Shown here: piece after piece, positions 53,318 to 59,085 of the stretch
How the letters are laid out: each line of letters begins with the position of its first letter
Numbering within the stretch: the stretch's first letter is position 1
NCBI GenBank assembly: GCA_030524035.1
Contig: JAUNHG010000002.1
Coordinates: 310,001 to 374,000 of the forward strand
DNA length: 64,000 bases
Direction: 5' to 3'
DNA from: Kocuria sp.
Lineage (GTDB): Bacteria; Actinomycetota; Actinomycetes; Actinomycetales; Micrococcaceae
Notes under the pieces: model-generated
Told to the model about the DNA's origin: nothing
Database searches by the model: none
The model's input: the letters and a program-made list of their open reading frames with translations, nothing else
Translations under genes and position numbers: made by a program

Positions 53318-53893
53318 TCACCGGGCGTGAAGTGCTTGAACTACCGTGTCGAAACGTTCGCGTTCCAAAACGGCACCGTCTCGACGAATATCTGCTTCCA
53401 GCACGCGGATCACACGGTCTACTCGAACTTCTGAGGGGCGTCCTTGTCGGTCCCATTTGCCCATGCCGATATCTACGTAATTGTTATCACGTGAGCGCTC
53501 GTTATTGCGATCTTTGGAGGTCAACATCAATCCCAATAAGTATTCACCGTCACGCCCTACCAACAGAATGGGGCGGTCTTTGCCTTGGTTGTAATTTTCC
53601 TGGAACGGCACCCAGGCCCACACAATTTCCCCAGGATCAGCCTTGCCATCCGGGTGGGGGTTATAGCTGGGGTTGATACGGCCTACGTAATCACCGGGGT
53701 AGGGCTTGGAAAGCTGGCCAGCTTCTCCACCAGCGGCGTGCCGTGAGCCCGAATGTGAGGGGACAGTAGACGTTGCTACTGCCCTGGAACGGCGTTGGGT
53801 GGAAGTCGCACGGGATTGGTACCTCCGGGTCCGACGGTAGACAGTCATCGCCATGCGGATGAGTCGTTTGATATTGGCATCCATGGTGGTCAT
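53318..53893 (-). CDS. PemK/MazF-like protein without partner antitoxin
   Basis: This protein of about 191 residues has a basic, probably disordered N-terminus of about 70 residues (YRRTRRYQSR). A PemK/MazF-like barrel follows: GEIVWAWVPFQE, KDRPILLVGRDGEYLLGLMLTSKDR and RVDRVIRV. MazF toxins are mRNA endonucleases, but this family lies next to rpsT in many Micrococcales without an antitoxin gene and may not be a toxin. None of the flanking frames encodes a small antitoxin. ATG at 53893 is preferred over one three codons further in. It is divergent from crtE. Confidence 0.72.
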   Translation of the reverse strand: MTTMDANIKRLIRMAMTVYRRTRRYQSRATSTQRRSRAVATSTVPSHSGSRHAAGGEAGQLSKPYPGDYVGRINPSYNPHPDGKADPGEIVWAWVPFQENYNQGKDRPILLVGRDGEYLLGLMLTSKDRNNERSRDNNYVDIGMGKWDRQGRPSEVRVDRVIRVLEADIRRDGAVLERERFDTVVQALHAR

Positions 53894-53945: not shown

Positions 53946-55022
53946 GTGTGGTCCAATGAGGGGGTGACCTTCACGCATTCCGACGCAGCTGCCGGCCCCC
54001 CGCCTGTTCTTGAGGCCTTCTTGGAAGACTCGCGACAGCGTGCGGCCAAAATTTGCCCCAGTTTTGAGGGACTCTGGGCTGAAATCACACGGTTGAGCAG
54101 TGGAGGTAAGCGTTTGCGTCCAACACTTGTGGCTATGGCAGCGCGGCCTTACGGAGCTGATGTTCCTCCTGTGGCAGTCGAGACAGTGGGGGCAGCGTTT
54201 GAACTACTGCATAGTGCGCTGATTATCCATGACGATGTGATTGACCGTGATACCCGGCGTCGTCACGAACCCACATTGCATGGCGCTGCTCAGCAGCGCG
54301 TCACGGCACGTGGCGTTGGAGCTGACCGCGCCGAGCACTACGGGTATAGCGTGGGGATTATCGCCGGCGACTTAGCTCTGATGGGGGCTCAACGGTTAGT
54401 CCGCTCGGCCAGACTGCAGTCTATGGTGAGCGAGCGAGTCATGGAGTTATTGGACCAGGCGGTATTTGCCTCGGCAGCGGGCGAACTGATGGACATCGAT
54501 CACGCTTTACCGGACTTTTTGCCTTCTTCTGATGCTGTCGTGCAGGCCACATGGTTGAAAACTTCTGTGTATTCCTTTGAAGCTCCGTTGCAAGCTGGAG
54601 CACTGGTGGCTGGTGCCCCGGAGGACCACATTCAGGCATTAGGGGATATCGGTATGCACTTGGGCTTGGCTTTTCAATTAGCGGATGATTTGTTGGGCGT
54701 GTTTGGCAACGATGAGTACACGGGTAAATCCATTGATAATGATCTTCGGGAAGGCAAACACACACTGTTGATCGCCGAAGCGATGGCTCGTGATGACAAC
54801 CACCGTGTGCGCTCCTTAATGGCACAGCCTTGTTTATCCCAGGAAGACACCCAAATCCTTCGGAGTTTTTTGACGGAAAGTGGTGCACGCCAGGCGGTAG
54901 AAACTCGTGCTCGTGAGGCGGCGGCCCATGCGCGGAAAATTGCAGAAGATGCGCAGCTTCCTGCCCCCTTGATTCAGGATGTCCATGCTGTGGCGCGTGA
55001 TGCTGTGGAGCGTATGCGATGA
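53946..55022 (+). CDS. crtE: Geranylgeranyl diphosphate synthase (carotenoid type)
   Basis: This polyprenyl synthase is expected to supply C20 diphosphate to CrtB and C5/C15 precursors to the pathway. The 358 residues contain the first Asp-rich motif DDVID (96-100), GGKRLRP, and the second Asp-rich region FQLADDLLGVFGND (about 243-256) followed by GKSIDNDLREGKHTLL. GTG at 53946 or 53964 may be the start; neither has a strong ribosome binding site. It is first in a five-gene operon, with its stop overlapping crtB (ATGA). Confidence 0.9.
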   Translation: MWSNEGVTFTHSDAAAGPPPVLEAFLEDSRQRAAKICPSFEGLWAEITRLSSGGKRLRPTLVAMAARPYGADVPPVAVETVGAAFELLHSALIIHDDVIDRDTRRRHEPTLHGAAQQRVTARGVGADRAEHYGYSVGIIAGDLALMGAQRLVRSARLQSMVSERVMELLDQAVFASAAGELMDIDHALPDFLPSSDAVVQATWLKTSVYSFEAPLQAGALVAGAPEDHIQALGDIGMHLGLAFQLADDLLGVFGNDEYTGKSIDNDLREGKHTLLIAEAMARDDNHRVRSLMAQPCLSQEDTQILRSFLTESGARQAVETRAREAAAHARKIAEDAQLPAPLIQDVHAVARDAVERMR

Positions 55023-55972
55023 CTGCCGAGAGCGTATCTTCTAACCGCATAGCAGCTCAGCGTTACGACCATGCGGCGCAGACAGCTGCAGCTACCGTGA
55101 TCACGGCCTATTCAACGTCTTTTGGCATGGCGTGCCGACTCCTTAGCTCAGATGTTCGTACACAGGTGCGCTCCGTGTATGCCCTGGTGCGTGTGGCGGA
55201 TGAAATTGTTGATGGTGCTAGCGCGGGATCGGGAGTGAGTCCCGAAGAGGCATGGGATCTTCTTCAAGAACTGGAAGCAGAAACTTTAGCGAGTATCACA
55301 CGTGGTTTTTCCACAAATTTGGTGGTTCATGCTTTTTCGTTGGCTGCCAGGCAAGCCGACATCACGGACGAATTAATATCTCCCTTTTTCGCCTCCATGC
55401 GGGCGGATTTAGATCTTGAGATACACTCAGACGCCTCCTTAGATCAATATGTGTATGGGTCAGCCGAAGTCGTGGGGCTGATGTGTCTCAAGATTTTTCT
55501 GGCGTCGTCTCCGGTGGGTCCCGGCCAGGAAAAGGAGTTAGTTTCTGGGGCGCGTCGCTTGGGCGCAGCCTTCCAGAAGATCAACTTTCTGCGGGATCTT
55601 TCCCAGGACTACATCATGCTGGGGCGGGTGTATATTCCGGGGACAACCCCCCAGGTTTTCAATGAGTCGATTAAAAACAATATTTTAGATGATATCCAGG
55701 GCGACCTTATTGCAGCCCGTGCAGTCATTGACGACCTCCCTGATAATTCCCGCACCGCCGTGCTGGTTGCCCATGACCTCTTTGCGGAATTAGCGCGCCG
55801 TTTGCGAGCAACACCCGCTGATGATCTGCTGACCGTTCGTGTTCGTGTACCAGATACTTACAAAGTTTTTCTACTGGCGCGTGCAATGGGGACCGCTAGG
55901 GCAGTGCCGTGGATCAAGGACATAACCGCACGTCATGGCATCCCACAATCGTCTAGGAGTTCATTGTCATGA
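55019..55972 (+). CDS. crtB: Phytoene synthase
   Basis: This enzyme condenses two geranylgeranyl diphosphates to phytoene. The 317 residues carry the two Asp-rich substrate-Mg motifs, DEIVD (61-65) and NFLRDLSQDYIMLGRVYIP (about 195), and the block YSTSFGMACRLL. It overlaps crtE and crtI by four bases each, so the first three genes are translationally coupled. Confidence 0.94.
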   Translation: MTAESVSSNRIAAQRYDHAAQTAAATVITAYSTSFGMACRLLSSDVRTQVRSVYALVRVADEIVDGASAGSGVSPEEAWDLLQELEAETLASITRGFSTNLVVHAFSLAARQADITDELISPFFASMRADLDLEIHSDASLDQYVYGSAEVVGLMCLKIFLASSPVGPGQEKELVSGARRLGAAFQKINFLRDLSQDYIMLGRVYIPGTTPQVFNESIKNNILDDIQGDLIAARAVIDDLPDNSRTAVLVAHDLFAELARRLRATPADDLLTVRVRVPDTYKVFLLARAMGTARAVPWIKDITARHGIPQSSRSSLS

Positions 55973-57552
55973 CCCAGAACGTCACGGTGATCGGAGGCGG
56001 TATCAGCGGGTTAGCCGCAGCTGCTTTACTAGCCAAAGATGGCCATCGAGTCACGCTTTTTGAACGTGGTACCTGTACGGGTGGACGCGTGGGTGTGTAT
56101 AGACGTGACGGTTTCACCTTCGATACGGGACCCTCGTGGTATCTGATGCCGGAGGTTTTTGAACATTTTTTCCGCCTCATGGGGACGAGTGCGCAGCGTG
56201 AGTTAGACCTCACACGCTTAGAACCGGCGTATCGTGTTTTTGGGCAAAATTATGCTGAACCCTTGGATATTCGTGCGGATCTTGAAGATACGGTAAGGGT
56301 CTTTGAGTCTGTGGAACCGGGAGCAGGTGCAAAGATTCGTGACTATGTCGCATCAGCAGATCGTACATATAACCTGGCAGTGCAACACTTCCTTTACACC
56401 TCGTTCTCCTCACCCAAGACTTTTGCGCGTCTGCTGAACTTTGATGTGTTGCGACATCTGCCCAGCCTCGGCAAACACCTCATAAGTTCGCTGCACGCAC
56501 TAACACACCAGACCGTTAAAGACACCAGACTTCGACAAATTTTGGGATATCCCGCAGTATTTTTGGCTTCCCGTCCTCGGCAGACACCATCGATCTATCA
56601 CCTGATGTCGCGCATGGATTTGGCGGATTCTGTGCAGTATCCAACAGGTGGGTTCTTTACTATCATCCAAGCGATCGAAAGATTAGCCAGGGAGTACGGT
56701 GTAGATATCGTCCTCAACGCGAACGTGGAACGTATTCTAACTGTCCCTAATAAACAGGGAAAATACTCCGCAAAAGTTACCGGGGTGCAATGGCGTGATG
56801 CAGATGGTGCGTTGCGCGACCATACGGCAGAGCGTGTGATTTCCGCAGGGGATCTGCACCACCTGGAAACTACGATGTTGCCAGAACACCTACAGACATA
56901 TCCGCGGTCGCGCTGGGCTCGACAGCAGACAGGGCCGGGCGCTGTTTTGGTACTACTCGGTGTGCGTGGGGCCATTCCACAATTAACCCATCACAATTTA
57001 TTTTTCACAGAGGATTGGGATACGAACTTTAGTGCGATTTTTGATGATCCCACCCGAGTGCCTGACCCCGCGTCAATCTATGTGTGTAAACCATCTGAAA
57101 CAGACGAATCTATAGCTCCTGAAGGCGACGAAAACCTCTTTGTGTTGGTGCCAGTCCCTGCAGACGTCAGCATTGGACACGGTGGTAATGATGAACAAGG
57201 TTCGCCACAAGTAGAGGCTGTGGCGGATCGAGTAATAGCCCAGATCGCAGCATGGGCAGATGTGCCGGATTTAGCGCAACGAATCGTGGTTCGCCGCACT
57301 ATAGGACCCGCAGATTTTGCGGATAATTACCACGCATGGCGCGGTAATGTTCTGGGCCCAGCGCACACACTGCGGCAGTCAGCGTTCTTACGGGGGAGGA
57401 TGCGCAGCCGTACAGTCGATGGATTGCATTATTGCGGATCCACTACTGTGCCTGGAATTGGCCTTCCTATGTGTTTGATCAGTGCGGAAAATATTCTCAA
57501 GGATTTTCGTTCAAACACCACGACGGCACCCCTACCTGAACCGCAAAATTAA
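55969..57552 (+). CDS. crtI: Phytoene desaturase (lycopene-forming)
   Basis: This FAD enzyme introduces four double bonds into phytoene to give lycopene. The 527 residues show the FAD motif VIGGGISGLAAAALLAKDGHRV (about 7-28), DTGPSWYLMPEVFE and the C-terminal CrtI signature GLHYCGSTTVPGIGLPMCLISAE. Fully desaturated lycopene is the product expected from the downstream lycopene cyclase and elongase genes. The gap to the next gene is four bases. Confidence 0.94.
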   Translation: MTQNVTVIGGGISGLAAAALLAKDGHRVTLFERGTCTGGRVGVYRRDGFTFDTGPSWYLMPEVFEHFFRLMGTSAQRELDLTRLEPAYRVFGQNYAEPLDIRADLEDTVRVFESVEPGAGAKIRDYVASADRTYNLAVQHFLYTSFSSPKTFARLLNFDVLRHLPSLGKHLISSLHALTHQTVKDTRLRQILGYPAVFLASRPRQTPSIYHLMSRMDLADSVQYPTGGFFTIIQAIERLAREYGVDIVLNANVERILTVPNKQGKYSAKVTGVQWRDADGALRDHTAERVISAGDLHHLETTMLPEHLQTYPRSRWARQQTGPGAVLVLLGVRGAIPQLTHHNLFFTEDWDTNFSAIFDDPTRVPDPASIYVCKPSETDESIAPEGDENLFVLVPVPADVSIGHGGNDEQGSPQVEAVADRVIAQIAAWADVPDLAQRIVVRRTIGPADFADNYHAWRGNVLGPAHTLRQSAFLRGRMRSRTVDGLHYCGSTTVPGIGLPMCLISAENILKDFRSNTTTAPLPEPQN

Positions 57553-57556
57553 CACC

Positions 57557-57916
57557 ATGACGTTACTAAATTTCACACATCTTTTCATTTTGTTGACGAG
57601 TATGGCGGGTATGGTCATTCTGGATTTTCGCCATCGATTGTTTTTCTTTGCGTCGCCACGACGAGCAGCAGTAGTGACATGTATTGGTGTCATATTTTTT
57701 ATAGTATGGGATATTGCAGGAATCGCTCACGGAATTTTTTTACATGGGAATTCAGATATGGATACCGGAATTCTATTGGGTCCTGAAATGCCCATAGAAG
57801 AGATCGTATTTTTGACGTTCTTGTGTTACCTCACTATGAATCTACTTGTTGCGATGGAGCGTGGCTTGTGGTACTGGAGTGGTAGAGAGCAGGGCCCTCC
57901 GGAGGAGACCCAGTGA
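57557..57916 (+). CDS. crtYe: C50 carotenoid (lycopene) cyclase subunit, CrtYe-type
   Basis: This 119-residue membrane protein has about three helices and the cyclase hallmark PIEE (79-82, in EMPIEEIVFLTFL). It belongs to the small-subunit family of heterodimeric lycopene cyclases found in CrtYe/CrtYf of Corynebacterium and CrtYg/CrtYh of Micrococcus. With the other subunit it would cyclise the elongated C50 backbone; the ring type cannot be told from the sequence. ATG at 57557 gives family length; starts further upstream lie inside crtI. The base composition is richer in A/T than the neighbouring genes. Confidence 0.88.
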   Translation: MTLLNFTHLFILLTSMAGMVILDFRHRLFFFASPRRAAVVTCIGVIFFIVWDIAGIAHGIFLHGNSDMDTGILLGPEMPIEEIVFLTFLCYLTMNLLVAMERGLWYWSGREQGPPEETQ

Positions 57917-59085
57917 CATACGGAGAACTCATTCTTGTTTTTTGTTCACTGGCCACCCTGCCTGGTGTTTTATTGGTGCAGATTGGTGCACTTCGTGTTC
58001 GCTTCAAGCTGTTGTGCGTGGCAGGTGTGCTGCTAGTCCTTGTGGCGTTAACGATTATCTTTGATTCACTGATCATTGCAGCGGGATTTGTGGAATATAA
58101 CCAGACCAAATTGAGTGGGATCACACTATGGAAAGCTCCTGTTGAAGATATTTCTTACGTATTAGCAGGTTCTATACTGCTCCCGGTTTTATGGTGGATA
58201 GGGGAGCATCCTGAGCGCGCAAAATCTCAAATTTTTACATGGATGTCTACCAGTCGACCTGTATCCTGGGTAAACACGGCCTATCCATTTGCCGCCGCTT
58301 ATTTCTTAACGACGGGAAAAGTTGACGATGTTTTGATTGTCGGAACACTATTTTTTCTCATTCCATATAACTTTTTGATGTATGGAATCAATGATGTTTT
58401 TGATTACGAATCCGATCTTCGCAACCCCCGCAAAGGCGGCCTTGAAGGGGTAGTGATCGATCGTTCGCAGCATCGGGGAATTTTGGCGGCCTCTGTGGCA
58501 CTAACATTACCTTTCACTCTATATTTGCTATTCGTTGGTGATTATGCTGCAACGGTGGTTTTGATTATAAGTTTATTTGCAGTGATTGCCTACAGTATAA
58601 AAGGTTTACGTTTTAAAGAAAAACCTTTTCTGGATGCTGCGACATCAGCCACTCATTTTGTCTCTCCTATGGTGTACGGATTAATGATAGCTAAGGCCGA
58701 ATGGAACTGGACTTTGGTGGCAATTACTTCGGCCTTTTTTCTGTGGGGTATGGCTTCTCAAGCTTTTGGGGCAGTTCAAGACATTCAAGCGGACCGTGCG
58801 GGTGGAATACGGTCGATAGCAACAGTTCTGGGGGCTCGCGCTACCGTGTGGAATGCGGCAGCTATGTATTTGGCGGCTGGTGTGGTGCTGCTGTTTACCC
58901 CACAGCCGGCTACCAGTGCAGCACTATGTGTTCTGCCATATATCGCCAACATGCTTCCTTTCCTTGCTATTGACGATGCCACATGCGAGCAAGCTCATCA
59001 GGGATGGAAGCGGTTTTTATGGATTAATTACGTGGTGGGGTTTGTGGTTACCATGCTCTTGATCCAGGTCAAATTAGGTGGTTGA
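57913..59085 (+). CDS. Fused C50 cyclase subunit (CrtYf-type) and lycopene elongase (CrtEb-type)
   Basis: One open frame of 390 residues carries two proteins that are separate in Corynebacterium. Residues 1-100 form a second CrtY-type subunit with helices and the motif PVED (76-79). After a short linker, residues 115-390 form a UbiA-type prenyltransferase with both Asp motifs, NDxxDxxxD (N160-D168) and DxxxD (D290-D294), and several membrane helices. The elongase adds dimethylallyl units to lycopene; the cyclase part works with the product of the preceding gene. It starts at a GTGA overlap with crtYe. A comparable fusion (LbtBC) has, from memory, been described in Dietzia. Parts of the gene are unusually A/T-rich. 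Confidence 0.88.
   Translation: MTYGELILVFCSLATLPGVLLVQIGALRVRFKLLCVAGVLLVLVALTIIFDSLIIAAGFVEYNQTKLSGITLWKAPVEDISYVLAGSILLPVLWWIGEHPERAKSQIFTWMSTSRPVSWVNTAYPFAAAYFLTTGKVDDVLIVGTLFFLIPYNFLMYGINDVFDYESDLRNPRKGGLEGVVIDRSQHRGILAASVALTLPFTLYLLFVGDYAATVVLIISLFAVIAYSIKGLRFKEKPFLDAATSATHFVSPMVYGLMIAKAEWNWTLVAITSAFFLWGMASQAFGAVQDIQADRAGGIRSIATVLGARATVWNAAAMYLAAGVVLLFTPQPATSAALCVLPYIANMLPFLAIDDATCEQAHQGWKRFLWINYVVGFVVTMLLIQVKLGG

Follow-up and report, generated by a model that had tools for sequence, protein, structure and literature searches.

The analysed window, a 64,000-nucleotide stretch of a Kocuria sp. contig, carries five carotenoid genes in the order crtE-crtB-crtI-crtYe-fusion, the fusion being the final gene (Table 1). 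The open reading frame listed for crtYe begins farther upstream, within crtI. The stop of crtYe and the start of the fusion overlap by 4 nt (GTGA). The stretch made up of these two genes (57557-59085) has a GC content of 44-46%, as compared to 56% for the window. Scanning the operon for promoters and terminators returned fewer sites than were found in shuffled sequences.

Table 1. Features of the carotenoid operon, its divergent neighbour and the parts of the fusion gene (window coordinates).
Feature	Position	Strand	Details
PemK/MazF-like gene	53318-53893	minus	listed ORF to 54088
crtE-type polyprenyl (GGPP) synthase	53946..55022	+	PF00348 E 3.1e-47; start codon uncertain
crtB, phytoene synthase	55019..55972	+	PF00494 E 2.6e-37
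crtI, phytoene desaturase	55969..57552	+	TIGR02734 523.5 bits
crtYe-type partner cyclase subunit	57557..57916	+	119 aa from ATG; TIGR03462 52.8 bits; PIEE motif
crtYf-crtEb fusion (LbtBC-type)	57913..59085	+	CrtYf-like cyclase subunit and UbiA-type lycopene elongase; 390 aa, GTG start
Cyclase half, residues 1-98	57913..58206	+	Pfam PF18916, TIGR03462, AF2 model
PVED motif, residues 76-79	58138-58149		in cyclase half
Junction, residues 99-115	58207..58257	+	short; predicted helix 100-113 (AF2)
Elongase half, residues 116-390	58258..59082	+	UbiA fold; PF01040, PRK13105
NDVFDYESD motif, residues 160-168	58390-58416		in elongase half
DIQAD motif, residues 290-294	58780-58794		second elongase motif

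The initial annotation had described the last gene as a CrtYf-like cyclase subunit joined in one frame to a complete UbiA-type elongase with both sets of motifs intact, and this description holds. The gene is a single open frame of 390 codons, present in one copy in its genome of 2.3 Mb, and both of its domains pass curated cut-offs. The cyclase half is matched by Lycopene_cyc (PF18916) over residues 9-85 (31.7 bits, Pfam cut-off 27) and by TIGR03462 (CarR_dom_SF) over residues 13-94, at 40.4 bits against an NCBIfam cut-off of 39.4, a margin of 1 bit. The UbiA domain PF01040 spans residues 124-368 (E 1.5e-25, above the Pfam cut-off) and PRK13105 covers residues 102-387 (437.6 bits, NCBIfam cut-off 217). 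As in lycopene elongases of the CrtEb/LbtC kind, NDxxDxxxD and DxxxD both occur in a UbiA fold. As in heterodimeric cyclases, the two subunits each exceed the TIGR03462 cut-off and carry a P-x-E-D/E motif (PVED in the fusion, PIEE in the partner). One frame encodes a lycopene cyclase domain and then a UbiA elongase, the arrangement of LbtBC. The gene is thus very likely an LbtBC-type fusion within a complete Kocuria C50-carotenoid operon.

A search for the same architecture showed that 12 further Kocuria genomes encode the fusion; 11 have a full-length copy at 59-70% protein identity to the window protein, and in one the copy is interrupted by a contig end. The nearest named relatives of the window are Kocuria coralli, K. 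dechangensis and an uncultured Kocuria. In each of the 12 Kocuria copies measured, the window's among them, the P of PxED and the S of SRP are spaced 38 residues apart. The dN/dS ratio between two of these genomes (L002 and L003) is ∼0.13 in the cyclase half and ∼0.12 in the elongase half; dS is below 1 in this pair and saturated in pairs with the window sequence. Both halves are, judging from these ratios, under purifying selection. A sequencing error hiding a stop between residues 100 and 115, which the initial annotation had named as a possible flaw, is excluded in practice because independent Kocuria assemblies share the frame.

The frame might nevertheless yield two proteins, if translation also began around codon 110 or if the product were cleaved. 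The window does contain an in-frame ATG at codon 110-111, three codons before SRP and approximately where separate elongases begin. This ATG is not conserved, and no Shine-Dalgarno-like tetramer lies shortly upstream of it in the scanned stretch. No internal start codon common to all Kocuria copies was found, and two of the genomes (L139 and L141) lack ATG, GTG and TTG throughout the scanned stretch. A separate elongase from an internal start was rejected on the grounds of this lack of conservation. The shared frame, the fixed spacing, the selection on both halves and the absence of a conserved start make both sequencing error and a two-protein product unlikely, the latter with only a very small chance of being correct.

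We infer the enzymatic activities, the order of steps, the stoichiometry and the route to the fusion as follows. CrtE, CrtB and CrtI would produce lycopene, to whose ends the elongase half would add C5 units from dimethylallyl diphosphate. The cyclase half, together with the separately encoded CrtYe, would then close the end rings to give a cyclic C50 pigment. The fusion would tie one cyclase subunit to one elongase, so that both would enter the membrane together. If the cyclase half were instead a vestige, the operon would yield an acyclic C50 pigment only, a reading in line with the red C50 pigments reported for Kocuria (PMC13028206). We consider this hardly credible: the PVED motif and the CrtYe partner are both intact, the cyclase half appears to be under purifying selection, and the CruF hydratase family (PF04240) has no match in the window's genome or in 23 further Kocuria genomes. 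A bacterioruberin route via CruF was rejected for these genomes on the same result.

The architecture is already known from Dietzia, so that the find itself is ordinary; what is added here is its recurrence in Actinomycetota. The Dietzia precedent, LbtBC, which the initial annotation had named, was confirmed as having the same architecture (PMC6393565). LbtBC and LbtA of Dietzia sp. CQ4 were described by Tao 2007, as relayed in passages of PMC6393565 and PMC6669644. LbtA and LbtBC expressed in Escherichia coli yield C.p.450 (PMC6393565), and LbtBC alone elongates lycopene in Corynebacterium glutamicum to the acyclic C50 carotenoid bisanhydrobacterioruberin (PMC5678898). In both genera the cyclase subunit precedes the elongase, a separate partner is encoded upstream, and the partner gene overlaps the fusion by 4 nt (for lbtA and lbtBC, PMC6393565). 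The earlier suggestion that a separate CrtYe partner sets the Kocuria fusion apart from Dietzia therefore fails, because LbtBC has the same kind of partner in LbtA. The two do differ in the junction, which is 64-101 residues long and variable in the Dietzia loci read and fixed at 38 in Kocuria; the known product of the Dietzia system has beta rings. The published primers for CQ4 lbtBC had no exact match among the loci searched.

The three functions are also found in two systems with separate genes. CrtYe, CrtYf and CrtEb of C. glutamicum (decaprenoxanthin, epsilon rings) are encoded in the order crtYe-crtYf-crtEb after crtB and crtI, as in Kocuria, but there crtYf is not joined to crtEb, and crtE is separated from crtB by cg0722. 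Micrococcus luteus CrtE2, CrtYg and CrtYh (sarcinaxanthin, gamma rings) share the functions, the bacterial family and a related elongase with Kocuria; their genes are separate and the elongase comes first.

We take the reference sequences in our trees to be those of M. luteus NCTC 2665, C. glutamicum ATCC 13032 and C. efficiens. In agreement with the initial annotation, which assigned no ring type, no firm grouping with an epsilon, gamma or beta reference was obtained in trees of the cyclase halves or of all domains. The best tree places the Kocuria cyclase halves with Corynebacterium (support 75). M. luteus alone as their sister was rejected (AU p 0.006), and a grouping with M. luteus together with the Glutamicibacter group was not (AU p 0.26). 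The trees are blurred by long branches, chiefly those of Dietzia and Corynebacterium.

Kocuria and Dietzia could have inherited the fusion from a common origin and make the same beta-ring pigment, C.p.450. The shared architecture, gene order and 4-nt overlap point this way, and a joint clade is not rejected for the three domains (AU p 0.38) or for the cyclase halves (AU p 0.395). Against it, Kocuria and Dietzia were never joined in unconstrained trees, the junctions differ as described above, and the elongase half falls into one group with Micrococcus and unfused Kocuria genes, at weak support (81). We regard this origin as possible but rather doubtful.

Beyond Kocuria, fused frames occur among the loci examined in Dietzia, the Paenarthrobacter/Rothia group, a Curtobacterium and Microbacterium sp. 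STN6, and the fused state demands a minimum of 5 changes on the 105-row tree. Common clades were rejected for Kocuria with Paenarthrobacter/Rothia (AU p 0.015), with Microbacterium STN6 (AU p 0.0005) and with Curtobacterium (AU p 0.026), and for Dietzia with Paenarthrobacter/Rothia (AU p 0.043). These were two-tree AU tests on quick trees of sets smaller than 105 rows; the groups were picked after tree inspection and the p values are raw per test, and they serve as a guide. On the sequences compared, the fusion appears to have arisen more than once in Actinomycetota.

We found 15 loci, some of them from the same genome, in which crtYf and crtEb share a frame and are separated by exactly one stop (L034, L035, L036, L038, L042, L052, L077, L079, L157-L161, L230 and L235). 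Among them are Glutamicibacter, Paeniglutamicibacter, Rhodoluna, Demequina and a genome that we take to be C. efficiens. Such single-stop pairs in relatives suggest that stop loss is an easy route to fusion, and the Kocuria fusion probably arose when two neighbouring genes lost the stop that separated them. Three loci, titled Acidobacteria (L034), Sporosarcina (L036) and Planococcus (L105), carry actinobacterial C50 clusters; the aligned proteins of the first two are identical to those of Micrococcaceae genomes, so contamination or misnaming is likely for these.

The initial annotation had also proposed that the fusion allows substrate channelling. The AF2 model of the protein (pLDDT 89.7, pTM 0.82) has three predicted transmembrane helices in the cyclase half (3-23, 29-56 and 77-98), followed by the junction helix and then the elongase. 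The part from about residue 103 onward matches UbiA structures with Z of 20-22 (4od4, Z 22.2; 4tq4, Z 21.8); the fold search used the whole-protein model, and these matches concern its C-terminal part, with nothing firm for the cyclase half. A sequence search of solved structures returned a weak chlorophyll synthase match and nothing else. The Asp-motif loops of UbiA enzymes are cytoplasmic. Given this, the helix order and the loop charges of the model suggest that PVED and the elongase Asp motifs would lie at opposite faces of the membrane, in which case passing the intermediate straight from one active site to a neighbouring one would not be the obvious interpretation. The two modelled active sites could still reach opposite ends of one carotenoid. 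Separately encoded elongases and cyclases are functional, and so is a mixed operon that combines crtE2 of M. luteus with crtYeYf of C. efficiens (PMC6393565); elongase and cyclase of different species can thus work together, and the chemistry does not require the fusion. One further idea, which we consider a long shot, is that joining of CrtYf and CrtEb was repeatedly favoured because the two enzymes act together as a single complex within the membrane; in Kocuria the junction, fixed at 38 residues, would then make a rigid bifunctional enzyme whose active sites, at opposite faces, serve opposite ends of a membrane-spanning carotenoid.

Ten other Kocuria genomes encode crtYf and crtEb separately. 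The members of this set that were included in the trees do not cluster with the fused genes as a single group: most fall near Micrococcus and one (L027) elsewhere. A published K. rhizophila cluster has been likened to the sarcinaxanthin cluster of M. luteus (PMC12500396). The fusion is common in Kocuria and absent from Kocuria species with a distantly related C50 cluster, and these natural fused and split pairs make the question of an elongase-cyclase complex testable by comparison.

The operon of the window is flanked by rpsT/pemK and lepA, as it is in four relatives (G017, G006, G001 and G024); the other fused Kocuria genomes have no rpsT, pemK or lepA neighbour within the fetched stretch. 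With rpsT on one side and crtE on the other, the PemK/MazF-like gene is divergent from the operon; four relatives that share this layout keep it at 49-60% identity. A second UbiA gene adjoins a CrtI-like gene in several Kocuria (L143, 4912-7226; L145, L146, L147, L149 and L153), and in four fused Kocuria genomes a second UbiA gene lies beside the operon on the opposite strand.
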